DNA of 64,000 bases from Rhea pennata (lineage: Eukaryota; Chordata; Aves; Rheiformes; Rheidae): NCBI RefSeq assembly GCF_028389875.1, contig NC_084678.1, positions 12,740,899 to 12,804,898 of the forward strand. The letters run 5' to 3'. The position numbers were made by a program, and so were the translations under genes. Of this stretch, positions 15,074 to 63,556 are shown piece after piece (positions within the stretch are counted from its first letter, which is position 1; every line of letters begins with the position of its first letter). The notes beneath the pieces were generated by a model that was not told the origin of the DNA, ran no database searches, and saw only the letters and a list, made by a program, of their open reading frames with translations.

Positions 15074-15115
<42 letters not shown>
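15071..15115 (+). repeat. CTCGGG hexanucleotide repeat in promoter
   Basis: Six perfect CTCGGG units (15075-15110) are flanked by partial units. The array sits between the X-box-like site and the start codon, probably in the core promoter or 5' UTR. Such arrays are CpG-rich and prone to length change. Confidence 0.85.
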
Positions 15116-18200: not shown

Positions 18201-19701
18201 GGGCTCAGAGTTTCAATTTGACCTCAGAATCTTTATTTGCCAAGGACAACAAGGGTTAGCTGTGCTTTAGATCACTCTTTACAGATTCAAATTTCTTAAG
18301 TCCTTATTCTGAAATTTCTACCATTATGTACATGTACCTTCCTGGTAACAGTCATCATATCTGTTCTTCTGTCTAGATTAGATTTATAAACACTTTTTCA
18401 TTGTCCCTTCCCCCAGATCATAAGTGGGACATGATTTCCTTCATTATCCTGCTCAGTGGGTGGCACTTTTGGCCATAAAAACTATCTTTTCAGAAGAACT
18501 GCTCCACCTAAATATCATAAACATTTTTTATTCTTGGCCGAAGAACAAAGTGAAGCAACTCTGGCAAGAGAACTGAAACATTGTTCTCTTGTTGTGTATT
18601 TCTCTACTGAATAAGTCCCCAGATGCTAAAGTGATACAACGTGCCCAACTGAGATGATTCAGCCAAAGTAAGCACAGCAGTCAGTGAACAGAGGCTGTTG
18701 GCTTTTGTTTTGTTTCCTTTTTAGCTAGATTAGTTGCAGATTAACTTCATGCATATCCATCTTTTAAAGCAGAAAGAAAGTGGAATGGATAAGTAGTCCT
18801 TGATGCAAAAGCCAGCCTGTTCTGTAAGATCTTTAGCATTTGGCCTCGGAACTATTATTCTGTAGCTTTGTCACTACCAAATACATTGCAGCAAGTACAA
18901 AATGCCTATTACTCTTGTTCACAGAAGTTATCTAGATTATAAATTATTATTACATAAGGAAAGAAGTTAAAACTAAATCTTAGATTCTTCTCCTAATGAA
19001 GTAAAGTATGTAAAGCCCTTAGAAATATATTGAACAAAACTATAGATAAGCATCCATAACCCAGACATATTGAACACCTTAACAACTTGCAAAAGTGTTA
19101 ATTTCTGTCTTTACTTACTTTTCCTTGAAGTAAAAAGAAAAACTAAATATACTAACATATACTACCAAATGGTAACAGTTATAGACTAAATTGTATAGTT
19201 TTCCTTTAATTTTCTGACTACCTTTAATTTGTTTTACTACTTTAGTTATTTCCCTGAGTCTTGCTAATAGTATAGGCCCTAAATTATTCTAAAGGCTTTT
19301 TAAATTATAAAGCATCCTGTATTATAAATACAAACTCACATGTAAATGGGCGATTTTTTTGAAGTTCTTATTTCCTTCCATTAACGTTGGTGTATGTTCA
19401 GGATATTAATTTGTCAGATTAGGTTGCATTTAAAACCACTATTTTTAACACTACAACAAGAAAGAGGAAGTTGCATGACAGAATGACAAAAATTAAAACC
19501 AAAAACTTCTTGATCACTGAATCCTACATATTACTTTTATTCTAGGTGAATCCATCTCCTCCAGTACCTAAAACGACCCAGGGGTTTATTGGTTGGAGAT
19601 CAGCTGTTCCTGAATTGGAACTTGAACGTGGCTTTCAAATCCAAAGCTGCAAAGGTAGCTTTTTCAAGGATCTGAAGTGGCCATGTGAGCCCTCTGATTG
19701 A
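15186..19701 (+). CDS. CIMIP1: Ciliary microtubule inner protein 1 (C20orf85 ortholog), 4 exons
   Basis: CIMIP1 (C20orf85, LLC1) is a small structural protein bound inside the doublet microtubules of motile cilia. The coding exons are 15186-15247, 15939-16020, 17045-17143 and 19546-19701. Joined, they give 132 aa without a stop, against about 137 aa in human. Family landmarks are visible in order: the N-terminal FVAQDNIW segment (14-21), the WGFLTTPLEE motif (about 39-48), the PEHLQIRPVTPMEKYIK segment (about 65-81) and the PSPPVPKTTQGFIGWRSAVP block (84-103), followed by the SCKGSF and KWP residues near the end. All introns are GT-AG. The exon 3 donor (AAG then gttata) is weak. The ATG at 15186 is chosen because it opens the only matching frame inside the CpG island. 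A likely poly(A) signal lies at 20022. The gene stands alone with an X-box upstream, as expected for RFX/FOXJ1 control in multiciliated cells. Identity is confident, while the ciliary role rests on the family. Confidence 0.92.
15939..16020 (+). CDS. CIMIP1: CIMIP1 coding exon 2
   Basis: Acceptor tgcttcag and donor GAG|gtaaaa. The first base completes Trp21, then residues 22-48 follow, including the conserved WGFLTTPLEE. Confidence 0.93.
17045..17143 (+). CDS. CIMIP1: CIMIP1 coding exon 3
   Basis: Acceptor ttggttttag. 33 codons in phase 0, residues 49-81, rich in Lys/Glu, then the conserved RPVTPMEKYIK. The donor AAG|gttata is a weak match to consensus. Confidence 0.9.
19546..19701 (+). CDS. 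CIMIP1: CIMIP1 coding exon 4 and stop
   Basis: Acceptor ttattctag. Residues 82-132 and TGA at 19699-19701. Contains the family hallmark TTQGFIGWRSAVP. Confidence 0.93.
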   Translation: MNPSPPVPKTTQGFIGWRSAVPELELERGFQIQSCKGSFFKDLKWPCEPSD

Positions 19702-39239: not shown

Positions 39240-40235
39240 TCAGTCCCCGCGCCTGGTTCACGCACGCGGGTCGCGAACAGCGCACGGGCCCGTGGCAGGG
39301 AACGTCCAGCACAGGGGCAGAGCCCGGGCGCAAAGCCCGGCCCTCGCCCGGCGCGGACCCTGAACGGGCAGACAGGGTTCGGGGGCGCAGCCGTGACCTC
39401 CAACCGTGCCAGGCGAGTGCTGAACCACTTGCTTCACGCGCACAAAAACGAGGCTTAGGGACTCACCTCCAGGAAGCTGAGAGCTGCAGGCCCACGGAGA
39501 CCCGTCCCCAGACAGGGGAAACCACCCGTCTCCGAGCGAGGCAGCCCCAAATCCAGGTACCTCTATGTCATACTTAGGCCCGTGCCCTGAGCAAGGCTCC
39601 GCGCTCCGCTCGGGGGCTCTCTGACAGGAAACACATAGAGCAACGTTGTTCAGATCCCCCTCGCCCGTCCTGGACAACGGGGCACCTGGCGCCGGGTACG
39701 ACCACGTCCTCCGCACCGCAGCCCTGCCCGTGGGGCTCGGTCTGCAGAACCTGCCCGCGCCGAGTCAGCGGGCGCAGGGCAAAGCTGCGATCAGAGCGCT
39801 CGAGTCGGGTCTCGGTCCGCGCACCAGCCACGCACCCTCCCTCGGGGGACATCAGCTACGGCCGCCCGAGCTCCCGCCTGCACCCTCCCTCGGGGGACAT
39901 CAGCTACGGCCGCCCGAGCTCCCGCCTGCACCCTCCCTCGGGGGACATCAGCTACGGCCGCCCGAGCTCCCGCCTGCACCCTCCCTCGGGGGACATGAGC
40001 TACGGCCGCCCGAGCTCCCGCCTGCACCCTCCCTCGGGGGACATCAGCTACGGCCGCCCGAGCTCCCGCCTGCACCCTCCCTCGGGGGACATCAGCTACG
40101 GCCGCCCGAGCTCCTGCCTGCACCTTTCTGATGCTCATTTCACCTCTCTGCCCGAGCCGTCAGCAGGCAACCGGCCGTCGGCTCTGGTCGCGCCCTGGCT
40201 ACGGCCGCTCCCAGGCGCTGGCCTGGAACAGACCT
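39240..40235. promoter_or_regulatory. Orphan CpG island
   Basis: A GC-rich and CpG-dense block of about 1 kb in AT-rich surroundings, about 1.1 kb beyond the ANKRD60 stop codon and thus not the ANKRD60 promoter in the model given here. It contains the 48-bp tandem array. Overlapping long frames occur on both strands (39176-39577 plus, 39646-40131 plus, 39258-39716 minus, 39791-40138 minus), as expected where stop codons are rare. Donor-like sites exist (CCAG|gtacct near 39556, CTCAG|gttagt near 40336), so a spliced noncoding transcript starting here is possible but unproven. Confidence 0.65.
39833..40126. repeat. 48-bp minisatellite, six copies
   Basis: Six head-to-tail copies of a 48-base unit start at 39833, 39881, 39929, 39977, 40025 and 40073. 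They are almost identical: copy 4 has CATGAG where the others have CATCAG, and copy 6 has CTCCTG where the others have CTCCCG. Each unit holds five CpG, and a degraded echo (GGCTACGGCCGCTCCC) occurs at 40197-40212. Because 48 is divisible by 3, every stop-free frame stays open across the array on both strands, for example a 16-residue repeat LGGHQLRPPELPPAPS on the plus strand. The near-identity indicates recent expansion or homogenisation. Confidence 0.92.
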
Positions 40236-41309: not shown

Positions 41310-41578
41310 TCATATGTCTGCTGCAAGGCTTGATTCAGAAACGATGGATGGCAAAGCACCAGCTGCTTTCTTCTTCAACTCGAAGCGGAACACGGTGCGT
41401 TCACTCTGCTTCTGGCCCAGCAAACGGGCAAGGCTCACTGCAGTTTGTCCCTCGTGATCTGGGTCAAAAGCTTGTGCCCCATAGCTAAGCAACAGTTCAA
41501 TACAGGCACAGTGGCCCATGACAGCAGCAACGTGAAGAGCAGTTCTTCCCAGAGGGGTTTTAAAATGCAAATCTGCAC
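41310..41578 (-). CDS. ANKRD60: ANKRD60 exon 4 (ankyrin repeats and stop)
   Basis: Acceptor gctttctgcag. The first two bases complete Gly158. The classic ankyrin core TPLGRTALHVAAVMGH follows, and the frame ends with TGA at 41312-41310. Confidence 0.92.
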
Positions 41579-44500
41579 CTGCAGAAAGCACACGGAGTCC
41601 GAGTTTGACAAGGCATATGACAAGGAAGATATGCCACCTGCAGGCCAGAATTTACTTCACTTTTTTTGCTGAAGGCAGCTGGCTTTAGTCACAGTCTAAT
41701 CACTGGAATTAACAATTCTATCTACTGAACAAATACTCCTACCTTCAGGCAGATATGGCTAACGTACAACAATTTGATGTTCTTTGTTCTGTTCAGGGGA
41801 CCTCTACCTGCTTTGTCCTAGCTGGGCACCACCATTGCTTCTGCACTGAGAGTTGTCACTTATTGAGAGACAATAATGCCATCCTTTAAACAAGGTTCCT
41901 CATGGATACTGACAGATTCAAGAACTTGGATTGAAGAGAACGCTATTCAACAAAGTGCTTCCCCCCACCCCAGCAATCATTTTTTAATCACTGAAAATGA
42001 TAACAAATACTTGCCCTTTCATTCAGGACATTCAAGTGACCTGAACTGACCTAAAGGACTGTCTACTGTGCAAATGCAAGTATCTAGGGAAACTACGTTT
42101 ATTCAGTTGCAAAGCAACTAAAAATGCAAAGGCCAGAGCCCTGAAACTAACACTTGCAACTCTTATTGCATCTCAGTGACTGATAAAAGCATTGGCATAG
42201 GACTGATAAAAAGTTAAGCTTTTCTAGGTCCTGAGAAAATAGCAATAAATGACATTTGCAGAATGGAAGTCAGAATCAGAAATCATGTTTCCTGTATGAG
42301 TTTCCTGCTTTCACACTGAAAGCCAATATAGTTAGAGCAAGGGCAGTTTTTACTGTTTTCAAGGACTGATGTGCTGCATATGTTCTCCACCTCAAAGACA
42401 AAATATGCAAAACAATTTGGGTAAAATTTTATGATCGTGTTAAGCAGAAAGATACTCTGGTGTTTGGCACAGTTCTTTTCTTGTAACTATGTAAGAATAT
42501 TACCATGTCTCAGGAGAAACTCAGCAGTTCTGACATGGCCCCTGTGGCTGGCAACAAACAGGGCCACAAAAGCTCGGTGTGCTACCCATTCCTTCCTCCG
42601 CTCTGGCCCCAGAAATTCTGCATATGGAGTGGTGCCTGCAAAGTCTTCTGTAACTCCCAGATGGGCTAGCTGCAAAATAAACAGAAATCTTTTAATCTGT
42701 TTCTAAAGGCTAACTTGCTTCTTTCTAGATATCAACAAAGACATATATCTGTACCTAGGGGATGCTTGTACACTTCATAAATCACTCCGAGACTAGTCAA
42801 ATAATTTGTACTTCTTTCCTATTCTCCTGTCTCACCTGGATTCTCTGCTAGCTGATGATATTTACTTATAGCCATCCCTTAGAGGGAGCATGAATATAGG
42901 TTTTCCTTTTGTATATAGGACTACAAAATCTTACAGGAACTTCATCTCTTTGTAATCCCTATTATTCTCATTATCAGGTCTGTTCCCAGCTGATTTAAAA
43001 GTTTTGGGGAAGAAGATCAAGACAAACAGTATGACCATGTTATCCCAGTTTCCTTATGAGCTAGGCTATTCAGGCGAGACTTTGGGGTTTAATTCCAGCC
43101 AGCACACAACTCACAAGCATTAGCAGCTCCAGGAAATATACTCCTATATTACCTTCAACCCCAGAAAGAGCTTCCTTGGTTTAAAAACAAAAAAACAAAC
43201 AAAAAAACCAAAAAACAAACAAACAAAAAAAGCAAAAAAAACAAACATAAGCACCCACAATCCACATATCAGCTCTAAAGTGCTGCTCAGAGGCCTCCTG
43301 GGAACAATTTTCAGGTGCCTCATGGTGCTGTTCTTCACAAGAAATCAGTTCCAGATTTGACTACATCTTCCAGAATGCATCAGTTTCCAGTTTCCTCATA
43401 TAGTAAGCAGAAGCCCATTATCAGAACAGCTGCAGAATTATTTCTTTGAAAAGCCAATTTTTAGTTGAAAATAAACAATGTCACAAGATTTGTGTGGAGT
43501 TTTTATAGCAACACATCTTTTATTTCAAACAACACTGTTGTCTTTGTGGTGCATCCGTTTCCTGCTCAACACAGAGTAGGAAGTTTTTTTTAGCATACAG
43601 AATTCAAACCATGGTGGGGGGGGAGAGAGAAAGAAAAAAAACCATTTTGCCCAACAGCAAAATGCAAGCCATTTGTGGCACAAAGCAGAACAGCTGCTTA
43701 CCAGTGAACTGCAACACTACACAACAGTTAACGATAGAAAGGGAAGAACCCTGCGGTATCCATTTGCAATGGTTGGGGAATGCGGAAGAACAGAATGCAA
43801 TTAGCCAAGTTGGAACTTGGCCAGGGCAACAGAGATAATGGTTCTTTCTTTATAAAAGGTGCCAAAAGATATTTCATGACCACATCTGTTCAGGCCTGAA
43901 GGTTTGCAGTACAAATCAGTTACACAGAGTACCCTGTGTTTCTGCTGAGACAACATTTCAGTGCTAAATCATGAAAGCAGCATGCCCTCTATTGAAGCAT
44001 CAGAAACTATGTCCCACAAAAATCAAAGCTTTTTCACTAATCAAACTTGACAGCATCACAAACTCAAGATGGTCCATCAACTAGCAGGTAAAGAGGAGAA
44101 CTTGGGGAATGTCTCCTGCTCGCTGATTTTGGCAGTCAGCTGTTTTGAAGGAGTACAGATTCCCATTCTTACTTTGGAGTCAGCATGGTCAGTGGAGTAC
44201 AAACCAAGAAACACAGTTTCTGCCTCTGATTCACATAGTATTAGCCAAGTCTCTTAGCCTCACTGTAATGCCTGAGAACAAAAAAAACCTCATCTTTTAA
44301 CTAAAGGACCAAGTATCTTTTGTTCAGAAAACATATTATGAAAGCAAAATGGCAGTCAACTGGAGTAAGAAAATCTAACTTCTTTTCATAAACTAGGATA
44401 AGCAGGGGGCAAGAAAAGCAGTCTGTAAATATACCATCAGAAGTGCTACAAAGCTACACAACAGAGAAAAGAAAAAACTTGCACTCCAACTGTATGTGCT

Positions 44501-45987
44501 GTTTGCCTATAGTAGCAAAATGTCTTACTTCTAAACCAAACTGTATTAAGGATTGACTCCTCCTTCAGTCTTACCTTGACTCCCATCCTCAGATTATCAG
44601 TTGCTTTTAAATCTCAATTTTCAGAATTAAACTGTTGCAAGGACCACAACCAATTCATATAATTTTTATAATAAGACTCCCCCATTAAAGACTTCCCCAC
44701 TACTTGCTCTATAAAAACTTGTTTTATAAAAGCATTTAGACCTTCAATAATATACTTTTAGCATTTCCACATATAGTACCCTCCTGTTCACAGAAGTAAC
44801 AGGATCTACCTTCACAGTCTCTCCTTTTGCAGCAGCTGCTACAAGACGTCCCCAGCCATCTTGTCGCCAGATGCACATTGTAATTGTTCCACCAGGGACA
44901 ATCTCATTGTCCTTAAACGTAGAATCATCTAGCAGATCTACTGCAGGGAGTTATAAAGTAAAAGAAAAGGAAGTCAACATACCCTCAGAGATGACGACCA
45001 GTTAAAAAAAGTCGTGGTTGAATTTTTAGACATGTTGTTGTTCTCCAGTTTTGCTACCTAACATCCCAAGGAGGCTTTGGTCCAAGCGTGCTAAAGCTAT
45101 GAAAACACAGATGTATTCTCAGCCTGGAAAAGGCTGAAGTAAAGTGCTAATAGGGTAATATGGTTGAAGTCCACAGAAAGTTACAGTTAGCATATTAAAC
45201 ACAAAGACTGCAGGAGAAGATACGTGCACCTACACACAGTGTCTTTATTTTAAAAATAAAACACCAATTCCAGTTTGAAGACATGGAGATAGCAAATAGC
45301 AGGAAGAGGTTACTTGGTTTTAAGTAACACACTTGGTTTTAAGTAACACACTTAACCAAACTTAAAGAAAGGACTTTTCTTAGTATCTCTGCTTGCTACC
45401 TGAAAAATTAAGTACTCCAAACACACTCAGCTAATCTAACAGGAAACAGCATTACTTCACATAGTTCTAACTTCACATAGTTCTAACTTCAAGAAGATCA
45501 ACCAGAACCTTGCTAAAGCTATGCTAGGCTGTGCTAAATCAGTCAGGTATTAGCACTGGCTGTTGACAAACCAGGCAGGAATTCACAGATCACCACTTGC
45601 AATTACCTAAGAAGGTCCTGATGAGTAGATTTTACCTCTAAGCAGCAGGAAGCAAAGTTAATTGTTAAGAGCTGAATTCCAGGTACCATATGGTAAAAAG
45701 AGGATCAGATCTCTGATCTTCATCCAAGTAAGTACCATGCTAGTCACCACTAACAGGTACGGGGATACTGAGAACAATCTCCAAGGCTCCTACAGAGGTT
45801 ACAGGTTCCTACCTTCATCCAGGTATTGAAGTCGCTGGAAATTAATGGGTATCCCAGTCAGTAATTCCAGATGGGGCTTAAGCTTCTTCAAAGTCAAGTC
45901 ATTTTGGCATTGAGGTAGTGAAAAGATCTCATTTGTTTCAGCTATGCACAGCTGGACACTAAAGGTCCGTGGGGGCAAAAAAGACAT
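41310..45987 (-). CDS. ANKRD60: Ankyrin repeat domain protein 60, 4 exons
   Basis: The minus-strand exons, in coding order, are 45987-45813, 44940-44810, 42669-42504 and 41578-41310. They join in consistent phase (1, 0, 1) into 246 codons plus TGA. Residues about 9-85 look like a ubiquitin-like fold: FSVQLCIAETNEIFSLP, the LTLKKLKPHLELLTGIP helix, the QRLQYLDE strand, then a PGGTITMCIW strand. Residues about 130-225 are ankyrin repeats: HRGHVRTAEFLLRHGADLHF, the well-kept GRTALHVAAVMGHCACIELL, and HEGQTAVSLARLLGQ. The Ubl-plus-ankyrin layout and the place between CIMIP1 and PPP4R1L identify ANKRD60, which has no established function and is mainly testis-expressed in human. The protein is shorter than human ANKRD60 (about 345 aa). 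The frame stays open for some way upstream of the chosen ATG without another Met, so the 5' end may be incomplete. No CpG island marks its start. Confidence 0.85.
42504..42669 (-). CDS. ANKRD60: ANKRD60 exon 3 (first ankyrin repeat)
   Basis: Acceptor ttattttgcag, donor CATG|gtaata. Residues 103-157 plus one base, containing ALFVASHRGHVRTAEFLLRH. Confidence 0.9.
43181..43245. repeat. A-rich (AAAC)n repeat
   Basis: Runs of A interrupted by single C or CC in ANKRD60 intron 2. A simple low-complexity repeat. Confidence 0.8.
44190..44280 (+). mobile_element. Possible MIR-like SINE relic
   Basis: The segment TGCCTCTGATTCACATAGTA followed by TTAGCCAAGTCTCTTAGCCTC resembles the MIR stretch in which a TGTGACCTTGGGCAAGT motif is followed by TTAACCTCT. 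It is old, diverged and lies in ANKRD60 intron 2 on the strand opposite the gene. Confidence 0.45.
44810..44940 (-). CDS. ANKRD60: ANKRD60 exon 2 (rest of Ubl)
   Basis: Acceptor tccctgcag, donor AAG|gtagat. Completes Val59, then residues 60-102, including PGGTITMCIWRQDGWGRLV. Confidence 0.88.
45312..45350. repeat. 19-bp tandem duplication
   Basis: Two exact copies of ACTTGGTTTTAAGTAACAC back to back in ANKRD60 intron 1. Confidence 0.9.
45454..45491. repeat. 16-bp tandem duplication
   Basis: Two exact copies of ACTTCACATAGTTCTA plus a partial third, about 100 bp from the 19-bp duplication in the same intron. Confidence 0.9.
45813..45987 (-). CDS. ANKRD60: ANKRD60 exon 1 (start of Ubl)
   Basis: Residues 1-58 plus one base. 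The ATG at 45987-45985 is the only Met before the Ubl region. Donor GAAG|gtagga. A true upstream exon cannot be excluded. Confidence 0.75.
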
Positions 45988-45989
45988 AG

Positions 45990-47094
45990 TAATGAATCTA
46001 CTCCCGATAAGAAGTTTGAGAGCTTTTCCTCTTTTAGGAGTTTGATACCATTTTAAGGGCTGGAGTATAGATCTGGTAGTAGTTCTTCCCTCCCCTGGAA
46101 ATTCCCCTAATCAAAACTGCCTATGTCATTAAGGATAGATTTGCTTGTCTAGCACATTATGATATCCAGGCAGCATAAACTGACATCACAGTTGTTTGGT
46201 GTGCACACGCGACATAATAGGCTATACGAACTGATCAGAGAGCATCCATGCATAACAGAGGTGTGATTATAGAAAGGGATTTTTGTTGTCCTTGACCATG
46301 TTTTGATTTTCACTAGGATGATAAAAGTTTGCTTGGAAGACAGGCAGCAGAGAAACAGAAGTAACTCAGGAAAATACCTTCCTTCGGTGTTAGTCATCAT
46401 GCTGTCTGTATTTTATATTCCTGTTTTCTTTGTTCAAATTTAGACCTCAAACTACATGTTTAGTTTCAAGTGAAGAAGAAAGCATACGGCTGTTTTATTT
46501 GTTTGTTTCCAGTTTATTGCAGAAGAGTCTTGTGTCCTATTCAAAATGTGTGGGTAGGCATAATGGGAGGGGGGGGAAGAGAGCAGAAGATCATTTGCTA
46601 TCCTTACTTTTGCATCAGCTGAAAGCCTGTAGAAAAGGAGGAGGGAGATTATATATTCCTTAGCAGCAGCTGAGATAAGTTCTAGAGTACAGAATGGAAC
46701 TGCCAGTGAGCAAATGAAAACACAACTAAGATGGTGATTGCAGCAGCAACATATACAGGAAGGCTCCTGAGAAGGGCAGGAAAACCAACCCATCAGGCAG
46801 GCACCACTAATATTTTTTCTTTTCCTAAGGACCCAGCAACTATGTAGAGTTCTTTAACACAAGAAGCCTGAAAACAACACTGAAGTGAAATACCAGTCCA
46901 GAACATCCTTACGGAGTGAGGTTTGAAGAGGGAAGGTTTTTAAAATAAGGATTTGAAAGCCAGTCTCACCCAGCACATGACTTCTCTATTTAAAATAGAC
47001 TTTGCTAGAGTTTTCGTTAGAACAATTTGAGTTTCAAAGCCCTTTTGGCACACCCCCTTTAAGGAAAAAGGGCAGAAAGAGCTGTGTCAAATCT
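45990..47094. other. Intergenic gap between PPP4R1L 3' end and ANKRD60 5' end
   Basis: About 1.1 kb separating two genes on the same strand. It should contain the ANKRD60 promoter and 5' UTR, but no CpG cluster or clear core promoter was recognised. A short G8 run lies near 46568. Open frames on both strands are unsupported. Confidence 0.45.
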
Positions 47095-50259: not shown

Positions 50260-50414
50260 TTAGTTTTGTTTTTCAATCGAAGTATTGTCCATGTTATTCT
50301 GCTTTAGTTTTATGGTGGCAAAAAAGGACACATCTTGGTCTCTGTCAGACTGCAAAGCTAGAACCGTCTCTTCTGCAGCTTCTAGATGAGGATTGCCAAC
50401 ACTTTTAAAATAAG
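50260..50414 (-). CDS. PPP4R1L: PPP4R1L terminal exon (762-812, stop)
   Basis: Acceptor ttattctag. The first two bases complete Ala762. NPHLEAAEETVLALQSDRDQ and VSFFATIKLK follow, and TAA lies at 50262-50260. The tail differs clearly from that of PPP4R1. Confidence 0.92.
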
Positions 50415-52983
50415 CTAGAATAAGGGGAGAAAAGACCATTTTAATCAAAAATCAAAAGAATCAGTGAAACTTTTTCTTCAACTATGTAACACTGCAGGAA
50501 TACAGAAGCTGCCAAAATCACCTAAGGTAGCCCATCCAATTCGGAGACTCCTTAGAGAAACTACAGCAAGCTAGGGAAGCTGACAGAGTGAAAAAGAAAC
50601 ATGCTTCTTACTCAATTACTTTTACTTAGAATTCCACCCCACCCCTAGCCTTATTGAGGAAGTACATAGGTATTTCTAAAAGAGAATCTTTTTGTTGAGC
50701 CCTACATGAAAAATTACTAGTAAGCTCTAGAAGCTACTATACAATGTTTTTACAGAACACTTCATACTTCACTCTGAAAAAGGACAGGAGAAGAGATTCT
50801 TGTGCATCTCCCTTTGAATAACAAATGATCACCTGGGTTTTGTTTTTTGATTTGTTTAAGGAGCCATAATACAGTAAGTTGTGGCAATAAGCAAAATTAC
50901 ATTCTTTATCAGCTATAGGGCTGATAGCTTAAGATTAAGACAACATAAAACATTTCAGAAAAGGGTAGAACACTTAATTTGCCAGACCACATAGAAAACT
51001 ACTGTATTAGCATAAAGGTTCAAAATATATCAAAAGAATCTAACATGATTAGAATTTCTTAAGAAAAATGTTTTTGCTATAGATATCACATAAAAAACCC
51101 TGTAAGCAGCAACATTTATTACTTTCCATTATAAACAAGTATGCAACTGCCCTCTAGTGGATAAATATTACATTTGTCAAATTAATGATAATGTCAGTTT
51201 CAGGTCCTTTAGTGATATGATGAACAATTATTCTAATAAAGAAAAGTCCCTGCAGGTTTCACAATTAAAGAAATATTTCATTTTAAACATTCCTAAATCT
51301 GAAATTAAATGCAATATCCCAGATTATAGGGTATAATTTGTATTCAGTATAAATAAAGCCAAAAGTCCTTTTACCAGTTGAGAGAGCCCATTTATAGAGA
51401 ACTGCACTGGCAGAGGAAGGACACAATTCATGAGACATTAATTCTTTCAAAGGAAATTAATAACCACACCTTTCTCCAACAAGGTCTGCCTTAGAGCCTT
51501 GGCGAGCAGAACCCTTACATTTGGCACAGGATCTGAAGCAAGACTTAAAAGACTGGGGAGTAAGTGTTCAACAAATTGGTCGATAGGCATACATTCTTCT
51601 TCTACTACTGCCTACAGGATAAACGGAGAACACGAGAAAGCAAGATTTATGATAGAAATACACTATTTGCCATTCTTTTCCCAGCCTTAATTTGGCCTAT
51701 CCATAAAAAAAGTCAACGTTTAATTATGAAAAAATATACTCTATGTTGGTGAAATAAATAACCTCTATGAAACTGAAATATTGTTACGAATATGTCTTAT
51801 CATTCCAAAAGTCATATGAAGATTAACTCGCAAGGGCAGACACCTATCTTCAAAATATAATCTAGGAAACACTGTTCTCTCTTCTGTCACCATCCCTCCG
51901 CCTTCCAACACTCAGCTCCCCTCCCCTTGCATTCTGTCTTTACTTAAGCAAGCCATTTTGGGTTTTGGAGGTGAAAATAAAGAGGTAAACACTTCTCAGT
52001 ATCTGACAACCATTGATAATTCAAAGACATCTTGTGAACCCTTACCATGTCAAAGTAAGTATTTCAAAAATGCATCTCAGCTTAGCACTCACCAATTCTC
52101 CACTTTGCTGCTGGAATGCCATGAAGGACAAGAATTGACCATTCCATCAGAAGGCACACCCCAAAATGGAAACCACAGCTTTGAACTTGGATAGTCATAT
52201 GCTACTGCTTAGACCAGACCAAGTCTCGTACTGCCTTTTATCAACTCAAGAATGGCAACAAAAATTTTGGGGGTACAAATTTCAGTTTTGCCTACAATGC
52301 TGAAAAGCTTCATACAGGCTCCAAAGTAAACATACATAGAAGCATAGAAGAGAGCATTCCAACCTGACAAATGAAAGCAAAAGCTTGTCTTCCAACCCAC
52401 TTGGAAGAGTGACGGAACCGCACCACAAGTTCATTAATGAAATTTAATCCCAGTGCATTTGCATTGTTTGCATAGAATTTCTGTAGTATTGCTACAACCT
52501 GTGGAACAAAAGAAGGGGAGGGGGATCAGGGGAAGGAAATCTGAAGTGAGACTTAAATTGTAGCATCAGCAGCTAAAAAGATCTAATTCTGACTCTTACA
52601 GAGGAACATTAAAAATAGTATATTCAGTATAATCAGCTCTACTTGCAGACCTTAGTAAATTTCTGTGCTTACACTGTAGAAAAGTTTTCTGCAGAGAAAG
52701 CGTAAGTTGGGATAGGAAGAAATTGTCTTTAAAAATCTGTGTGTGCAAATCAAACAAAATCACTAGAAGACATTAAAACCACCATTAAAAGGCCTTTCTG
52801 TGTTGCCAAAAAGATTAAGAAAAAAGGAGTGGGAAAAAAAAAGGGGGGGCGGGGAAAGAAGAAACTGACAACTTGCCACTCACTCAGAACACCCATGGGA
52901 AATGGTGTTATCAAGTTCCAAACCAAACCAAATCTAAGGAAAGACTAGGTGTTTGTTTGTTTTGGGGTCCTTTTTGTTTGGTT

Positions 52984-53021
<38 letters not shown>

Positions 53022-56000
53022 GTAGAACTGGAGGAAGTTCTCCTAAATCATCTGTTTTCTCATTTACATCTAGTTAAAAAGAAATGTGTCAGATAAAATA
53101 TTTTATAAAATCTTTCTCTGCTGATTGTGAGTTGTCTGGCTTTCACTGAATTTAAAGTTTTTGTTCCACTTTTTCCCCCCCATTTTTTTACCACATTTAT
53201 GAAAACATGTCTTTCCTCACAATATCTGCCTAAAAGAGTAGAGTGTTCACACAGGTTAGTAGCTTCTGACTAGAGACAGACACTAGCTTCCTTAGACTAT
53301 ACGGACAGATTCCTCACAAGAATCCTTTTCCTCAACAACCAAACCAGATTCCCTACCAGTTTGAAGGAGATCCACCGAACTTCCGACACTTTATCAGAGC
53401 AGAGAGTTAGTGCAATGTGTCTTAAGTAGTCATATACATCATTGGGATTGTAGAGTTCTAATATCAGAATCAGCTGCCTGAAACATAAAGAAAGGGATTA
53501 GCTCTGAGAAGGGCAACACTAACCTGCTCTGAGTACACCATCCTGCAAGATGTAGGGAAGTTTTATTTGAAGTTTTGAAGACTGTCATGGTTATTACACA
53601 GCTCTTGAATAGTTTGTTCTATTTACTTTCAAAGGCGCACACATGTAAAGAGGCACATATTTTAATCCATCATGTAGTGCACAGTATAAATCTTTACTCA
53701 AACTGTAGATGTACAAAGGCATCAAAATTACCTCAAATAACTAAAACTACAAACCAAAGTACAAGAAGAAGTTTCCTTGTAATTTCAGGCCAATACTCTG
53801 AACATTCTTGTACAGAAGAAATAAAATTACTTCACTGTAAAGATCTACATTTCAGAAAATGCACAAACTCATTCTAGCCATCCAGCACTGGTAGATTACT
53901 GGCAGTCACACACAAACAAGTGACAGGACAAGAGGCAATGGGCAAAAACTGAAACACAGGAAGTGCTACCTGAATATAAGGAAGAACTACTTCACTGTGA
54001 GAGGGACAGAGCACTGGAACCTAGAGGTTCCAGTTGCCTAGAGGTACCCAAAGGTTGCCTAGAGAGGTTGAAGAGTCTCCTTCTCTGAGGATATTCAAAA
54101 CCTGTCTGGACATGATCCTGTGCAATGTGTTCTAGGTGACCCTGCTTGAGCAGGGGGGTTGGACTAGATGATCTCCAGAGGTCCCTTCCAACCTCAACCA
54201 TTCTGTGATTCTGTGAAATTAAATGCAGCTCTCCACTAGAGGTCAGGTAACTTCATACAACACTGCTGCACCTCAGATTTAGTCTGTTACAAGAAGTATG
54301 AAAGGAGAGTAAGTCTTCAATAGTCCAAATAAAGCACCGAGATAACTATGAAAGTCATTTTAGCTGCAAACTAAATTAAAAAAAAGGGGGGGGGCTTTTC
54401 TATTATGTACTTATTAGACAAATGACCTCATGTATGCCATTTACTGACTTCACAGATGGTCACAGAATCACAGAATGGTTGAGGTTGGAAGGGATCTCTG
54501 AAGATCATCACCCCCAGCTCAAGCACCTACAGCACATTTAACAGGAAGAGCGTGTTACACAGAAGTCGAAACTGAATAAAATTTAAAGTATGACCTCAGC
54601 ATCTATCAGATAGATACTATCTGGTTTTTGTATTTTATAAGCCACATGTCACCAAGCAGACCTTCCCTTTGACATATCATAACATTCACTTTCAGTCACG
54701 GTTGATTAAAACACAACTTGCAAAAAAAGCAGTCAGATGGCCTTTAATTTCCTTAATAAAGAACGGCTGTCATCTTTTAACTCAAAGTTATGGCATGCTA
54801 AATTCTGGGCACAATTAGCTATCTCCAAGTTAGTAACATTGATCAAAATAAAAAATTTACAAGCTTACTCTGCCAGCTCATAACGAAATCGCCAGTTCCT
54901 GCTGTTATCAGTCACCACAAATTCTTGAAGTTGGTAAAGATATTCTCGCCTTTTGTCTGCATGAAGTAGCTGAAGAAAAAAAAGCATTACTAACACAGAG
55001 CTGATAAAATTAAAAACTCCGTTCTTCAGTGTATTCTTCTGTTCACAACAAGTTGCATCTTCCTACCTGAAGGCAAGTGATCATTTACAAGATACTAAAG
55101 ACTGTGCACACCAGTGGAGTACCTGCATGCAGAAGACTGACATCTAGGAAAATACATACGTGATCACTTCTGCAAGGATATTTGTCAAAGCTCCATCTTT
55201 GAGTGTAAGATTGAGCAATAAAAAAATTAAAGATTTACGTTTATTATGTAGCGGTTCAAAGATGTGTTCGCTCTTTCCTATCCCAATCATAAATTGCTCA
55301 TGGCTACCTTGCTAGCCTGACTGCACAAAAATATTAACTCTTCTACAACACTTAGGAGCATTTACAAAGGGTTTTTAGTTTCAGTATCTTCATGGGACAT
55401 GAGACAGCAGAGAAGTGAAGGACCTTAGAAAGGGAATACACATACACAAAGACTGGCAGTACCTCACAAAACCAAACGTTTGTAATTAGATATTGATACC
55501 TGCACATTTCATGTAAGAAATTCTCTTGACCTTTTTTGCTGACTTTACTGTATAATCTTGAAGAATTACATTATATTTTCCTACCTTTAGAAAGTCATAG
55601 AGATGTTTAAGGACACCAATGCGCACTTCATCCAGATCTTTCAAGAACCCATTGAAAATTGGCACCAGATCGGCAGCTGTTAACTGATCACCCAGAATAA
55701 CAGCCAGTTCATGTATGGAGAAAGCTAGTGTCCGACGAACCTTCCACTGCAAATAGTTTAAGAGGGGAACTAAATTAGGTATCATAACTAAAAGAAGCTT
55801 CTGAACTACGCATATATGAGGTATTGAGAGAGAAAAAAAAAGGCTAACTACACAGCAGAAGAAAACATTTAACATATTTATGAATTTTAAGTCTTGAGTT
55901 TTATATTAACTGTACATTTTATCCCTTATTACAAACTAGCACTATTTGCTATTATCATTTCAGTGCAGCAATCTGAACAAAAAAGCTTCTCAAAGTTTTG

Positions 56001-59000
56001 ATTCATCAGTTGAGAAAAAAGTTGTTTTACCTGTACATCGGAGGCCAAAGTCTCATACGTATCTTTCAGACAGTGCCAGTTCTGCCTGCCAAGTGTTAAG
56101 GCCACCCCAGGAAGACTATAAGCACAGTGTTTGGCTATTTCAGTATCAACAGTCTGGGCTCGAGCAGGGTCAGTCATTGACAAGTACTGGTCTAATAAAG
56201 GTTGCGGTATTATATCCTGTAGATAGAGACAGTAAATCAATAACATTTTTTCCTTTGGGTTAATTTAGGATCAAAAAGGAAAGGCATCTGCTGTGCTACA
56301 GTAATTTCTTACTGCCAACCAGCTGGCAGCAAATAGAAAACAGTAGCCAAACACGTTTTGTGGGCTAGCTTTACAAATGACTGTACGTGACTCCTTCAGC
56401 TATCTGTCCTCTGTAGACTGTAGAGCAGTCAACAAGCAGCAAATATTACTTTATCAACACATTGCATCAAATCAAAATTTCATGTTTGTTGAAGATGGAC
56501 AACGTATCCTGTAACAAAACAGCAGTCAGTTCCTACCTCTGTTGCTCAGAGACTCGCTTTCTAAAAACATATTTTTTTCACACTTTTCTAATTAGAAACA
56601 GAATTCTCTTCACCCAGAGTATTGCTTCACTCTCCGCGACTGATCACTCATAGAAGCTATCACTGTACTGAACACAAGAGGAACTGTACCCAGTGCTCCA
56701 CTAAAGGGGTTATATGCTGCTTAATCACCTGTAATTTTGACTTGTCATCTTCAAATGGTGGATTATTTTCTTGCTCTTTCTTCAAAAAGACACTGGCTTC
56801 TCTATGTTGTTCCTCCAAGTCCTGTAAAAGAACATACCAGTTAACGAAATGAATTAGACTTACCGTTGTTTGGGATATTTCAAAGCATCACACTACAGAA
56901 CAATGCAATTTAAAGGCCCTTTACAGGAAAAGTCTTGTTCAACGTTTTTATGCAAGTACAAAAAGACAGAACAGACACTGAGATAATCACAATACGACCA
57001 TATTGACAAAAAGGCTAATGGTACGAGTACATGAACATACACACTACTTCAGTTGGTAAGAATTCATTTCAGCCATACAGCACAATGCATACTCACTGTG
57101 CTTTTCAATACACTGGTGGTAGACTGCTCACTGATGCCGTTCTGAGATGCATGGGATAAAAGTGTATCATCTTCCACCTGGCTGCAGGTAGCATCTGAAA
57201 TAGTTGCTTCATCTGAAATAGTTGTTTCATTCTGAAGTTTGCCCCTGTTCTCTATTTTTTTGGTCTCACAATCACTGATGGAATCAAACTGAGCAGCTCT
57301 GAGAGCAGCAGATAACACTTGGACCTGAGCTATATAAAACAAAAGGAGACAATTTAGTTTCCTTCCTGCACTTAAAAAGCATTAAGCTTGCAATTACTTA
57401 AGGTGAAAGGATAAAAAGAAACCCCACCTAAGCTGCACAGATACAGTAAATTAGGAAGCATTTCCTATTATAAATGAAAGTGTTAGTTCTCTTCCATAAA
57501 ACTTTCACATTTGATTTTGCTTTCGTAGTTGTATCCAATTCTATTTCTCAGGCCAGCAGAAGCTAGAAACACTTCACCTGTTCTAGAGATAGTTTAGGTC
57601 TTGGGAAGATGGCATAATTTTCTATAGCTGAGTGTGAAGCAAAATAATTTGCTACCCAAGGAGGTCTCATCACCTTATGAATACCAGAGCAATTAAAACA
57701 GTCAAGAGTTTTGTAAAGGTTGTGAGAAAATCTGTTCGGAGGAAATATCATTTTACTGTTAAAGTCTCACCTTGAACATCTGGATCATCTATGTGCTCCT
57801 GTAAGCTTTCCAGAACTTTTTTTATTTCATTACTGGCAACACAGTTATTGCACTGCACAGAGCAGCTCTCTTTGTGCTTCTCAGACTTGAACTGAAGCAA
57901 CTCCAGATCCTGGCTTATATCAGGCAGAGGAGGGCGCCAGTACAAGAAAGTATTAAATACATCCTCAGCAGACTGTAGTCTTGAGTTCCTTCCTGGAAAA
58001 TTGCTCTCCTTAATGACCTCTATGACACCAGCAGCAACACTGTCTCCCTGAGACAACCTAGTTAAGTCTTCTCCAGAACTGGTACAACAATCTGTACTTG
58101 CTTCCCATGTGTCTTTATTTAGATTCTTAACTGAGAGCACTGTATTAACTTCAGCTGAAGTCTCCTCAGTCGATGACTCTGGTTTGATTTCCATTGGTTG
58201 CTCTGAACTGACAACAGACACACACAGTTATCCAAATTAAAGCAACTTGGATCAGTACTTTTCAGTGAAATACTTTACAAGACAGCAACAACTACAGAAG
58301 CTTATTTGCTCTGCAGAAAGATAGATGCTGTGTCAGCGCTATGTTTTATTTCATCACTTTTCCCTTTGCTCTTCTACGAGAGCATCAAAAAGTCAATTAA
58401 ATTTCAATAATGTGGCTACACTCAAGCAGACATATGTGCAACCTCACTCTTTATACCTTTCCAGGAACCACACTTTCAAGATTTTTAGTCCTGAACAGCA
58501 AGTAAAATAATTACGCTCTTTCTTTTCCCTTCGCCTGCTTCCCATCTTCCCTATAATTTACCTGGAAGACGCAACATTTGTATTAGAGGACATAAAATTT
58601 ATATTGTTGTTTGCTTGACAGGAATTGGAAGTCGTATCTTGTGGAGGAGGTCGGATACTCAGTGTACCATCTTCTCGGATGTAAAGACCAGCACTTGAAG
58701 GGTTTGCAAAGGTAGAAATGAATGGGCCAAGGGATTGAAAAGCAGCCTGACGGACCTGAAAAAGTATGAAGACATAATATTCAGGATTCATGCAACTACC
58801 ATAGAGTTAATACTGAAAAATAAAATTTGGTTGAAAATTATTTCTAACTAGAACAGCTTCATTTAATACCAAATAAGTGACATTTAAGCAAGGATGTCAG
58901 GCTATTAAGTGTATATCTACAAACACAGTAAAGAAATTCAAAAAAGTTAAGATTTGAAGGAGATTACTTCTTACTTCAAATAGTACAGTCTACTCCAAGG

Positions 59001-62000
59001 AATTTTTAGATGCAAAATTTTAGAAATGTCATGCTCAGATAGAAATTTAACAATTAACAACAGATTTTTTTTTAAGTAACAAAAGAGAGGGGAAAAAATA
59101 GGATATTTGATCTTTAGAGTCTTGTCCATGCAAACTCAGCACATTTACAGTACGCTTTTGACTTGCTCATTACTTGTGTATGATTTGTCTGGGAAGATGC
59201 ACCAGTTATGGAGCAAGTTACTTACCCATCTGCAAGTGTCACTAATAAGACTGATAAAGAGTGGGGATAGTTTGCTTCTACGAACTTCTGGGGATGTTGT
59301 ATAAGACACCGCCATAAAGCACTCAGCACAAGCTTTTCTCATTCCCCAAACGCTATCTGAACAAAGTTCAAAGAACTTCGGAATCTGCCAAAATTAAGCA
59401 AAATGAAGACTAATTAAAGAGATACTATAGCAACTTTATAATAAGGTATTTGTTTGGGAAAGGGAGACAATGAGAGCTCAAGACAAAATGGGGGAAGAAA
59501 ATAAATTTATTTCTCCCATGCATTTCATTAGGATTTTATGCATAATTAAACACACTTGGAAAAAATACGAAGAATTATTAATGGCCTATTCTGAGATTCT
59601 AAACTGACTGATCATCTAGTTCAGAGAAAGGAAGAGAGTCAGTAACTTTAAAATTTACATATAGGTTGTCAACTACATTGGGGGGAAGATGCAGGGGAAG
59701 CATTTTGCAGAAAAATATCTATTTATGATCAATCACAGTCCTGTTGTATACTTGCAACCAAAGCCTTTGCCAAATCCCCTAAAATTCCTATATGCACACT
59801 GATGGATTTCCAGAGAAGACAGTAACAGAACCCTCACAATTAAGCCTTTTGAGCTGACAAATACAATTTTTATAAGTAGGTTTGATTTTTACATACCAGA
59901 AGTCTCTCTGTGGCTTCTTGCCCAACTGCATTACAAATGTCACCAAAATTAGCTGCACAAATCTAACAAAAAGAAAAAAAGTCATGAATAAAATCCTGGA
60001 CCTTTCAAGTTCATTAGTGGTTTGCTGTTGTTTTTAAAATCAACTTTACCATTCGTTATTTATCCCATCTAATAATTTCATATGAATGACTATTGAAATT
60101 TCACTTATGTAACTGTATCCTGTAACATTAACTCCTCATCCTGGACAAAGATTCATTAGAGCAGGCTTCCATAAGCCACATGCCTTTGAAATCAATAGTA
60201 GGATATGCTTCTGCATTGCAAAGTAATCTACTTCAGTAAGCATTAAAGGGGATAATAAAAGCCCACTTGAGTGTTTGAATGACTTTGAGCAGCAGCTGTC
60301 ACTGTGTTTATATATGATTTAGCTAATACCTATTAATTCTATATGCTTATAAGGGTATGATGCAGATCAAATTCCAATGACCATGCCTTACATTAAGGAT
60401 CAAGCTGAAGCTCTACATGACCCTTAAGTCTACTGAATTATTCCAAGACTTGTTGTGCTAGCAATTTCATTCTCAACCATGATTTGAAGTACACTTCATA
60501 CTTCTGAGATTTCTCCCTTCAGTAATGCAAGGCTTAAAAAAAAAAATAGTAAGAAAAGAGAATGTCTGAAATAGAGTGTTTTTGAATTTCTGCTTTTGAA
60601 ACTAGGTGGAAAATTGGTAACTTTTTAATTAGAGGATGTAAACAAGTGTGGCTTAAAAAAAAAAAGATTATGCAAAACCATTCAATGGTGCAGATCTACT
60701 ACAATGCCATTCACTAAGGACTACTATTTATTTCTTTATTGAACTAAAGAAACTATAACCATACCAATTAAATAAAATGATTAGATTATCAACATAAACA
60801 TTTGAACAGCAACATACAAAAATTCATTTGTGAATTAAATTGAATTAAAATTAAACTAAAATGAAAAAAAATTCATTTTAACTTCAAGCTTGAAAATACC
60901 ATGCCAACCTTTCGGACTTGGAACAGTTTCCCATCACTGCACAGTTCACAGAAACGAGGAAGCAGCATGTGCTCAACAGTGGATCTGCTCAGCATAGAAG
61001 CCATTTTACAGATTATCTGAAATCAAGAAGGGGAGATGTGGAAGATAAAGAAAAAAAAAATTCCTGCAATAAACAACCTATAAACATGGTCTGATGTTCT
61101 TCCTAAACATTACTTCAGAGAGAAAGAAAGCATCTACCATTACTCAAGAATACCAAGTGCTTTTATTTAATTCATAATTTCATACACTTATTCACGTGAA
61201 GCAGAAGTGTAGTTTTCTGTACAATCATACTTTATCATTCTATGCCCCTTTATCTGAACATAACACTTCTGCATATTATTTAATTGGATAAACAAGACAA
61301 TAAATCGACTTTATTGATAAATGTATTTTCAAGTTGTTTTGCAGTGAGGCATACACTGATATTTTTGCACAAAGACAACAAAAATTCCACTGCACTAGCC
61401 AGCGTACAAAACCACAATCTTTAAGTGTATTTGAGAAACATCCTAGACATGTAAGTAAACGCTTTGACTTTCAGAAGACTGATCAGATGCTTTAAAAACA
61501 AGAACATTCCCAGCTCCTTATAGGAACAAAGTCTAAACAGACAACATGATACAATAAGAGTTTGCCAAACAACAGAAGAGAAAAAGGAAAGCAAGACACA
61601 CTAACTGCATGTATTAGCTAATGCACACTTTAAAGGCTTCATACTCAAAAGTTATAAGAATTAACATCTCAATGTAATGAAGAAGAGTTAGTAACACAAA
61701 GTAATTTAGCTCCTCATTTTGAGGAACTGTCAACTTCAACTACATCACAAATCATGTTTCTGGTGTGAAAAAATCAGGTACTTTGGACTATATGTTTCCT
61801 TTCAGCTCCTACTTTACAGAGTAACTTACTGTAATCCTACACTTGCAACTGTAAAGAGAATGGAGCTCCCACGCACCTTTTTGTTCAGCTGTTCTGCTTG
61901 CAGCACTGGGAGTTACATGCTTACACAAGTGTTGTCAAATTCACAGTACTCATCCTTCTATTTTTACTTTTCCAAAATAAATAATTGAAACTTTCAACCT

Positions 62001-63556
62001 CCATAAAAATAAGCTTTGTTTTTTAGAAACATTTGCCTTCATACTAGAATACTAAATAACAATTAAAAAAGATACTGTTCTATCACTCTCTGCATATTGT
62101 CAAACTTCTGAAAGACATCTGGTGCTCAGATGTCACCCTGGAAAACTGCCTAAGCTCAACTCCCAAACAAGGAAGAGGAAAATCTAGCTGGTAAACCTGT
62201 TTTACAGGTCAAGTGTCAGATATCCATGCTGAAATGTAATTACACACCAGCACTTCTTTGGGGTCAACTGATTTATTGAAAGCGAACAGGGAGAATTTTT
62301 TCCAAGACACTTCAAGTTAAAGATTGTGGTCATCATTCATACATTTTTGCAACATTAATGTGAAAGCTGGAAGAACAAATGCGAAGAAACTACTGGAGAA
62401 TGTAATCTTAAATAAAAATTAAAATAAGGCTGTTAACAAATAACCACATGTTAAAGTTATTTCATCATCGATTTTGACAATCATCTAGCATCTTGAAATA
62501 CAAACATGGTCTCTTTAAACCTGATATGTTAAAAAATACAGAATAAAAAAAAGATTTGTGTTAAACTAAAAATTCAATGTTAATCAATAAACAAAAATAA
62601 GCAATAAAAGCTTTTATTTAATGTCAAAACTATTCTTGGACCTCATCTTAATTACTGTTGAGATCAAAAGCAACAACAGTTCTTCTTAATACTCATTGCA
62701 AGTACATGCAGGTATAGCTGCTAAAAAAAATTTTCTGAAATACCTCCACACTTGGTCAAAAGACGATACAATACTAATCAGGACAATCTTTCTGTTTTCT
62801 TGAATTTAATTCAAGTACAAACTCTAGTCTTATTTGCAAATTCTCAATGCGATATTCCAAGTCCTGATCAAGTTCTTTTTTTAAAAAAATATCACATTGT
62901 TTCAGTGGTACTCATGATTACATACTACTAAGAATCTTATATTTTTAAGACTTAACAGGTTAAGACATCTAAGCTATGGTTCCAAGCTTCAGCTGTATCA
63001 CACTAGTTTCTGAATTCTCAGAGCAACTAATAAATAGTTTGTTACTGTTTTCCTTCTCTGAGACAATAATGGTGTAGAAAGTTCTAAGTTCAATGACAAA
63101 ACGTAAAACTCTGAATTCAGAAGGTAAGATTTTTATCTTACTAAATATAAGAGATGGAAAACATCGCACAAAATCATTATAAATACACTCTAAAGGACCT
63201 TAAATAGCATTAAAAGAGACACTAAATAAGTCAGAGTGACATTCGTAATTAGTGATATGACAGACAGCAAGTGATGACACAAGAACTAAAAATCTGTCAG
63301 AAAACTCAATTTTCCAGACTCTCGTACTGACCATCTTATAAACTAGATAAATACATTTCCTAAAAAGCAATAAAATCGAAGTTACAAGCTTTCTTCCAGC
63401 TTCACTTACATTCACAGCTTCCACCTTGTACTCATCCTCACTGTCAGGAGCAGAGAGGTCCAACAGAATTGGACACACCTTATTTTCAATGTCACTCTGA
63501 GCAACGAGATCTTGTTCTATCAGTACAAGCAGCGCTTCTTGACCTGCCTTTCTAAC
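50260..63556 (-). CDS. PPP4R1L: PP4 regulatory subunit 1-like, 5'-incomplete, 15 exons visible
   Basis: This HEAT-repeat protein is a paralog of PPP4R1, which binds the phosphatase PPP4C and directs it to substrates. Fifteen minus-strand exons (63556-63410 down to 50414-50260) join in consistent phase with GT-AG introns into 812 codons plus TAA and no internal stop. Using visible-part numbering, residues 1-190 are N-terminal HEAT repeats (AGQEALLVLIEQDLVAQSD, LPRFCELCSDGKLFQVRK, WGMRKACAECFMAVSY, VRQAAFQSLGPFISTFANPS). Residues about 190-480 are a low-complexity acidic linker with a short conserved island (DDPDVQAQVQVLSAALRA). Residues 480-761 are C-terminal HEAT repeats (LLDQYLSMTDPARAQTVDTE, KVRRTLAFSIHELAVILGDQ, NGFLKDLDEVRIGVLKHL). 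The C-terminus diverges from PPP4R1. Flanking ANKRD60 and CIMIP1 point to the PPP4R1L locus (human 20q13.32), not PPP4R1 (18p11). Roughly the first 70 residues and the promoter lie beyond 64000. Human PPP4R1L is a pseudogene, whereas this copy looks functional. Confidence 0.93.
51147..51160 (-). promoter_or_regulatory. CTCF core motif in last PPP4R1L intron
   Basis: On the minus strand CCACTAGAGGGCAG fits CCASYAGRKGGCRS at every position and is one of the commonest strong CTCF core forms. It has the same orientation as the site at 39088-39075. Confidence 0.55.
51470..51611 (-). CDS. PPP4R1L: PPP4R1L exon (715-761)
   Basis: Acceptor tatcctgtag, donor AAAG|gtgtgg. Contains DPVPNVRVLLAKALRQTLLE, the last HEAT-type repeat. 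Confidence 0.93.
52364..52498 (-). CDS. PPP4R1L: PPP4R1L exon (670-714)
   Basis: 45 codons in phase 0, acceptor tgttccacag, donor CAG|gttgga. Contains NFINELVVRFRHSSKWVGRQ. Confidence 0.92.
52986..53020. repeat. T35 homopolymer
   Basis: Thirty-five T in a PPP4R1L intron, preceded by a GTTTG/GTTGG-rich stretch. No retroposon was recognised beside it. Confidence 0.9.
53357..53477 (-). CDS. PPP4R1L: PPP4R1L exon (629-669)
   Basis: Acceptor ttatgtttcag, donor CTG|gtaggg. Contains LYNPNDVYDYLRHIALTLC and SEVRWISFKL. Confidence 0.93.
53905..54220 (+). mobile_element. CR1 LINE 3' end
   Basis: A truncated but well-preserved CR1: the segment with GAAGAACTACTTCACTGTGAG and GGGACAGAGCACTGGAAC, then GTCTGGACATGATCCTGTGC, GTGACCCTGCTTGAGCAGG, GGACTAGATGATCTCCAGAG, GTCCCTTCCAACCTCAACC and the terminal ATTCTGTG octamer repeat. 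Inserted opposite to PPP4R1L in its intron. Confidence 0.92.
54460..54590 (-). mobile_element. CR1 LINE 3' end, short
   Basis: TCACAGAATCACAGAATGG followed by TTGAGGTTGGAAGGGATCTC is the reverse complement of a CR1 terminus. Similarity fades after about 100-130 bases. Together with the plus-strand copy 240 bp away it forms an inverted CR1 pair. Confidence 0.88.
54869..54969 (-). CDS. PPP4R1L: PPP4R1L exon (596-628)
   Basis: Acceptor tttcttcag, donor CAGA|gtaagc. Contains ADKRREYLYQLQEFVVTDNS and NWRFRYELAE. Confidence 0.93.
55585..55746 (-). CDS. PPP4R1L: PPP4R1L exon (542-595)
   Basis: Acceptor ctatttgcag, donor AAG|gtagga. 54 codons with WKVRRTLAFSIHELAVILGD and FLKDLDEVRIGVLKHLYDF, two HEAT repeats. 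Confidence 0.94.
56031..56216 (-). CDS. PPP4R1L: PPP4R1L exon (480-541)
   Basis: Acceptor ctatctacag, donor CAG|gtaaaa. Encodes the strongly conserved LLDQYLSMTDPARAQTVDTE and AKHCAYSLPGVALTLGRQNW segments. Confidence 0.94.
56729..56821 (-). CDS. PPP4R1L: PPP4R1L exon (449-479)
   Basis: 31 codons in phase 0, acceptor tcttttacag, donor CAG|gtgatt. A charged linker ending FEDDKSKLQ. Confidence 0.9.
57097..57329 (-). CDS. PPP4R1L: PPP4R1L linker exon (371-448)
   Basis: Acceptor ttatatag, donor ACA|gtgagt. Begins AQVQVLSAALRAAQFDS and then an acidic stretch with an in-frame six-residue duplication (ETTISD, EATISD). Confidence 0.92.
57193..57228 (-). repeat. In-frame 18-bp tandem duplication in PPP4R1L
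   Basis: Two 18-base copies differing at one base, encoding ETTISD and EATISD in the acidic linker. The length keeps the frame. Confidence 0.85.
57771..58207 (-). CDS. PPP4R1L: PPP4R1L linker exon (225-371)
   Basis: The largest exon, 437 bases, with acceptor ctgttgtcag and donor CAAG|gtgaga. Mostly Ser/Glu/Asp-rich and unlike PPP4R1, but it contains FLYWRPPLPDISQDLELLQ and ends KKVLESLQEHIDDPDVQ, which align to the paralog. Confidence 0.92.
58562..58755 (-). CDS. PPP4R1L: PPP4R1L exon (161-224)
   Basis: Acceptor ctttttcag, donor CCAG|gtaaat. Starts with the conserved VRQAAFQSLGPFISTFANPS, then passes into the variable linker. Confidence 0.92.
59226..59384 (-). CDS. PPP4R1L: PPP4R1L exon (108-160)
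   Basis: Acceptor attttggcag, donor TGG|gtaagt. 53 codons with VWGMRKACAECFMAVSYTT and ending DTCRW. Confidence 0.93.
59897..59962 (-). CDS. PPP4R1L: PPP4R1L exon (86-107)
   Basis: A 66-base exon with acceptor tttgttag and donor CTG|gtatgt. Encodes ICAANFGDICNAVGQEATER and two Leu. Confidence 0.92.
60909..61016 (-). CDS. PPP4R1L: PPP4R1L exon (50-85)
   Basis: Acceptor tgatttcag, donor AAG|gttggc. 36 codons containing STVEHMLLPRFCELCSDGKL. Confidence 0.93.
63410..63556 (-). CDS. PPP4R1L: PPP4R1L exon (visible residues 1-49)
   Basis: Acceptor attaatag, donor AAT|gtaagt. 49 codons in phase 0, ending SAPDSEDEYKVEAVN, a segment strongly conserved with PPP4R1. Confidence 0.92.

Follow-up and report, generated by a model that had tools for sequence, protein, structure and literature searches.

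PPP4R1L, a pseudogene in human, keeps an open reading frame over 15 exons in Rhea pennata

Human PPP4R1L has been called a transcribed pseudogene (PMC8048352, in excerpt), which bears out what the original prediction had said of it, and the mouse copy, Ppp4r1l-ps, is a pseudogene too (PMC4308015, in excerpt). Does the corresponding locus of a bird hold a gene that can still encode a protein, and what kind of protein would this be? The question was addressed in a window of 64,000 nucleotides of Rhea pennata DNA, the whole stretch that was analysed, in which PPP4R1L lies on the minus strand, near the high-numbered end.

The identity of the locus was judged from the two genes that precede it in the window:

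15955..19683 (bounds approximate), plus strand: CIMIP1 (C20orf85), three stretches found by tblastn with a provisional human protein sequence; PF14945 (LLC1) match, 4.7e-38
41310..46110 (bounds approximate), minus strand: ANKRD60-like gene in several exons; Pfam matches to ankyrin (3.7e-13) and ubiquitin-like (3e-5) domains

In the ANKRD60-like gene, which is named by its domains and its position alone and without comparison to an ANKRD60 sequence, the ubiquitin-like part lies within 45799-46110, and ankyrin parts lie near 42500 and within 41310-41651. C20orf86 is taken here to be ANKRD60. Given this equivalence, the gene order agrees with the C20orf85, C20orf86, PPP4R1L of the pig map, which continues with RAB22A and VAPB (PMC2374978, in excerpt). 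RAB22A, searched for with a provisional human protein sequence as query, had no match in the window and is expected beyond base 64000. Since CIMIP1 and an ANKRD60-like gene adjoin it, the locus is identified as that of PPP4R1L by synteny, and the assignment first made from these neighbours is supported by the PF14945 match, by the combination of ankyrin and ubiquitin-like domains in one gene and by the pig order.

Chicken PPP4R1 is located on chromosome 2, near RAB31, VAPA and APCDD1 (PMC5043582, in excerpt), and the gene studied here is therefore the other paralogue. The pairs RAB31/RAB22A, VAPA/VAPB and PPP4R1/PPP4R1L suggest that a chromosomal segment was duplicated long ago, and PPP4R1L would be one product of this event and hence itself old; a literature search for these three pairs named as ohnologues found none.

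An exon-by-exon rebuild on the minus strand, from 63556 down to 50260, gave the following structure, in which identities are to a provisional human PPP4R1 sequence:

63410..63556, minus strand: exon 1 in view, bounded by AG and GT; 28/49 identical to residues 147-195; earlier exons beyond 64000
60909..61016, minus strand: exon 2, weak donor AAG/GTTGGC; 19/36 identical
59897..59962, minus strand: exon 3; 16/22 identical
59226..59384, minus strand: exon 4; 38/53 identical
58562..58755, minus strand: exon 5, where the N-terminal HEAT block ends and the linker starts; 31/65 identical
57771..58207, minus strand: exon 6, linker, with the WRPPLPDI motif (PF15017); 40 identical of 122 aligned, out of 146
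57097..57329, minus strand: exon 7, linker, with an 18-base in-frame tandem repeat; 27 identical of 62 aligned, out of 77
56729..56821, minus strand: exon 8, linker, lowest conservation; 6 identical of 27 aligned, out of 31
56031..56216, minus strand: exon 9, where the C-terminal HEAT block starts; 55/62 identical
55585..55746, minus strand: exon 10; 53/54 identical
54869..54969, minus strand: exon 11, containing W621; 31/34 identical
53357..53477, minus strand: exon 12; 32/40 identical
52364..52498, minus strand: exon 13, weak donor CAG/GTTGGA; 20/45 identical
51470..51611, minus strand: exon 14; 33/48 identical
50260..50414, minus strand: exon 15, with the TAA stop at 50260-50262; 21 identical of 45 aligned, out of 50

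The 15 exons comprise 2439 bases, that is 812 codons followed by TAA, and contain no internal stop. All 15 acceptors are AG, all 14 donors are GT and the phases fit at every junction, which confirms the predicted chain of 15 in-phase exons with canonical splice sites. Across all 15 visible exons PPP4R1L is thus intact, an observation that holds for about the last 85% of this multi-exon gene: its first coding part, some 146 residues as estimated against the provisional human PPP4R1, lies beyond base 64000.

The count of 812 codons depends on the donors chosen at exons 2 and 7, where the alternatives also keep the frame and the better-scoring site was taken. At exon 2 this is AAG/GTTGGC (score 1.25) as opposed to ATG/GTATTT (-1.9), 9 bases further on, and at exon 7 it is ACA/GTGAGT (2.74) as opposed to GCT/GTATGG (-1.53), 6 codons further on. 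By the same assumed scoring matrix, 3 of the 14 donors fall below 1.5, namely those of exon 2, exon 11 (1.47) and exon 13 (1.03).

Chance origin of the open chain is excluded. Background segments with the same lengths and phases, each placed directly behind an AG at other positions of the window, put the probability that all 15 are open at 10^-19.1 for the minus strand and 10^-18.4 for the plus strand (a terminal GT was not demanded, and one half was substituted for counts of zero). When the coding sequence is shifted by one or two bases, 45 and 71 stops appear. A retrocopy origin is ruled out as well, because 14 introns are in view; the Ppp4r1 retrocopy described in a review is mouse Gm15681, which is separate from PPP4R1L.

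What protein does this frame encode? All identity figures rest on a provisional human PPP4R1 sequence. Against this reference, 450 of 764 aligned residues are identical; counted by alignment columns over the whole, the figure is 449/844, or 53%. The alignment is free of gaps over residues 1-193 and 463-796, and residues 1-190 and 479-807 jointly show 371/519 identities. Identity by exon ranges from 98% (exon 10) to 22% (exon 8): exons 9-12 jointly are identical at 171 of 190 positions, bearing out the predicted closeness of the HEAT core to PPP4R1, while linker exons 6, 7 and 8 stand at 33, 44 and 22%. Exons 9 and 10 (55585-56216) form a peak, at 89 and 98%, and the rest of the gene is far more diverged, a pattern that may reflect either strong constraint or gene conversion.

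Several Pfam models matched above their cut-offs, namely HEAT (PF02985, 3.1e-22), PPP2R1A-like HEAT (PF22646, 2.5e-9), WRNPLPNID (PF15017, 1.9e-7) and HEAT_2; HEAT_EF3_N stayed below its own. The HEAT architecture is in this way directly established, as two HEAT blocks and a conserved linker motif, the block layout being taken from the alignment to the provisional human PPP4R1. The predicted product is accordingly classed, from its sequence, as a PP4R1-class HEAT scaffold. It shares with PPP4R1 a HEAT scaffold with a linker, but it is encoded at another locus, its linker and exon 13 are strongly diverged and its C-terminal tail is different. The PP2A scaffold A subunit (PPP2R1A/B) is likewise the HEAT scaffold of a related phosphatase, although it is distant in sequence from PPP4R1L, and it is without the long linker. 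A phmmer search against the PDB matched PP2A-A with an E value of 2.7e-23 and aligned W621, in exon 11, to a tryptophan, residue 417 of the chain, in the PP2A-A sequence u28620. This tryptophan helps to hold the PP2A catalytic subunit. No PP4R1 structure was found in the PDB by sequence search at E <= 0.001, all 20 matches being PP2A entries. As expected, neither the 6 peptide-pattern matches in viral contigs nor the 46 in prokaryote genome contigs included a relative, and Rfam gave no match at gathering score within the window.

The high identity of exons 9-12 could have meant that the gene is PPP4R1 itself, displaced to this place. This reading is rejected by synteny and identity, and I give it next to no credence: over its whole length the protein is only 53% identical to the provisional human PPP4R1, the linker exons fall below even that figure, the gene is flanked by an ANKRD60-like gene and CIMIP1 in pig map order, and PPP4R1 has its own neighbours on chicken chromosome 2. 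Another account of the same identity is that gene conversion with PPP4R1 has overwritten exons 9-12 of an otherwise diverged paralogue. The sharpness of the shift, from 80-98% in these exons to 44 and 22% in exons 13 and 8, is what such an event might leave; however, the pattern is also expected if constraint in all PP4R1 proteins is strongest over exons 9-12, and conversion appears very improbable.

The open frame itself admits a different rival, a copy that has recently begun to die, open yet no longer selected, and so at the first step of the path taken in human and mouse. The low-scoring donors at exons 2, 11 and 13, the poor conservation of exon 13 and the position of the 5' exons outside the window would all suit such a copy, whereas the gap-free alignment over residues 1-193 and 463-796 and the 18-base tandem repeat in exon 7 (57192-57236, 2.4 copies), which keeps the frame, would not. 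Intactness also limits the time for which the gene can have run free to roughly 5-12 million years: at three assumed neutral rates, 1.0 to 2.5e-9 per site per year, and with an assumed indel share of 6%, the chance that an unselected copy is still intact is computed to fall to 5% after 4.6 to 11.6 million years. The estimate counted 27 splice ends against the 29 in view, which makes it slightly conservative, and it bounds the free-running period and is no substitute for dN/dS. A dying copy is very unlikely.

The best explanation of the data as a whole, and one that I hold with considerable confidence, is an intact multi-exon PPP4R1L that encodes a PP4R1-class scaffold and so would provide a second PP4R1-type PP4 complex. 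The points against it are the three low-scoring donors and exon 13, with its 20/45 identities to the provisional human PPP4R1. PPP4R1L looks functional, to judge from its sequence, and I infer that it is transcribed, that its 5' end is intact, and that its product binds PP4c and has a choice of substrates.

How might such a complex work? In T cells, PP4R1 recruits PP4c to the IKK complex and keeps IKK and NF-kappaB in check (PMC8286839, in excerpt). The association of PP4R1 with PP4c is methylation-dependent, the methylated part being the PP4c tail (PMC8630191, in excerpt); in the excerpt of the latter paper five PP4 regulatory subunits are named, PPP4R1L not among them. PPP4R1L would consist of two blocks of HEAT repeats with a rapidly evolving linker between them. 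If PP4R1 and the PP2A A subunit are a guide, the PP4 catalytic subunit would sit on the C-terminal block, and the choice of partners or targets would fall to the N-terminal block and the linker. Similarity to PP4R1 is greatest in the first half of the C-terminal block, which contains W621, the residue aligned to the PP2A-A tryptophan, and it is for this reason that PP4c binding is likely to have been kept. The linker exons 6 to 8, at 22 to 44% identity, would give the two paralogues different partners, and PPP4R1L would thus form a second PP4R1-type PP4 complex beside that of PPP4R1. In the PPP4R1L literature, as far as the excerpts go, no function was found described for an intact PPP4R1L protein. 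Taxol resistance follows knock-down of the human PPP4R1L pseudogene in HeLa cells (cited in PMC6486473, in excerpt); the human pseudogene may therefore still act, as RNA or as a fragment, which has no bearing on the intact protein.

Is this gene peculiar to birds? A BLAST-made table of 2007 places PPP4R1L on a platypus contig, on chicken chromosome 20 and on opossum chromosome 1 (PMC2042987, in excerpt), and within the excerpted PPP4R1L literature it was the sole source found to give an avian position. In pig, PPP4R1L is a named locus among 71, and Table 2 of the same paper counts expressed pseudogenes as 0 in pig, 1 in human and 1 in mouse, names not given; since its class 'known' also covers orthologues of known human loci, the pig listing is not proof of coding (PMC2374978, in excerpt). 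The horse locus LOC100056167, for which exons are given, is labelled a PP4 regulatory subunit 1 and has an 84.17% match to human PPP4R1L (PMC8048352, in excerpt). The integrity of the mammalian and chicken copies is taken from these published annotations, the excerpts of which hold no coding-integrity tests.

By annotation, then, PPP4R1L has become a pseudogene in human and mouse, yet not in all mammals. The proposal that the loss dates to the mammalian line is not supported, given the PPP4R1L annotated in platypus, opossum, pig and horse, and losses in human and mouse, within the placental mammals, are the simpler reading and fit better. The human gene and mouse Ppp4r1l-ps agree in locus, by name and map, with the gene described here, but they are named pseudogenes whereas the bird frame is open over 812 codons. 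The published copies of chicken, platypus, opossum, pig and horse share the family name and, in pig, also the neighbours and their order; they are taken as orthologues by name and position and not by alignment. The rhea gene is an ordinary PPP4R1L orthologue whose chicken position is already in print, and an intact avian copy was to be expected, because the gene had already been placed in chicken and reported in several mammals. The claim that birds have a second functional PP4 scaffold is upheld in part: the frame is intact over 15 exons and the product is a predicted HEAT scaffold, but the survival of the gene is not special to birds.

The intactness of PPP4R1L matters chiefly for annotation and for comparative biology. 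Should the protein be made, PP4 studies in human and mouse cells overlook one regulatory subunit kept by birds and, according to annotation, by several mammals. I regard it as somewhat more probable than the contrary that birds and several mammals possess another functional PP4 complex of the PP4R1 type, whose linker selects partners of its own, and that the human PP4 subunits are a set reduced by placental losses. PP4R1 holds IKK and NF-kappaB back in T cells (PMC8286839, in excerpt), a task that a second copy could share or split.

The window also contains repeats. Intron 11 carries two inverted copies ending in the ATTCTGTG octamer pair (54167-54216 and 54460-54509), which are 96% complementary and might fold into a hairpin once transcribed; two occurrences of the octamer pair compare with a mean of 0.00 over 100 shuffles. 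I take these copies to be CR1 3' ends typical of birds. In a GC-rich stretch, positions 39832-40124 hold 6.1 tandem copies of a 48-base unit (98% matches). Because the unit length is divisible by three, the array stays open in several frames, and it is probably not a gene. Upstream of the CIMIP1 matches, also in GC-rich sequence, a perfect hexamer array, GCTCGG repeated 7 times, occupies 15074-15115.
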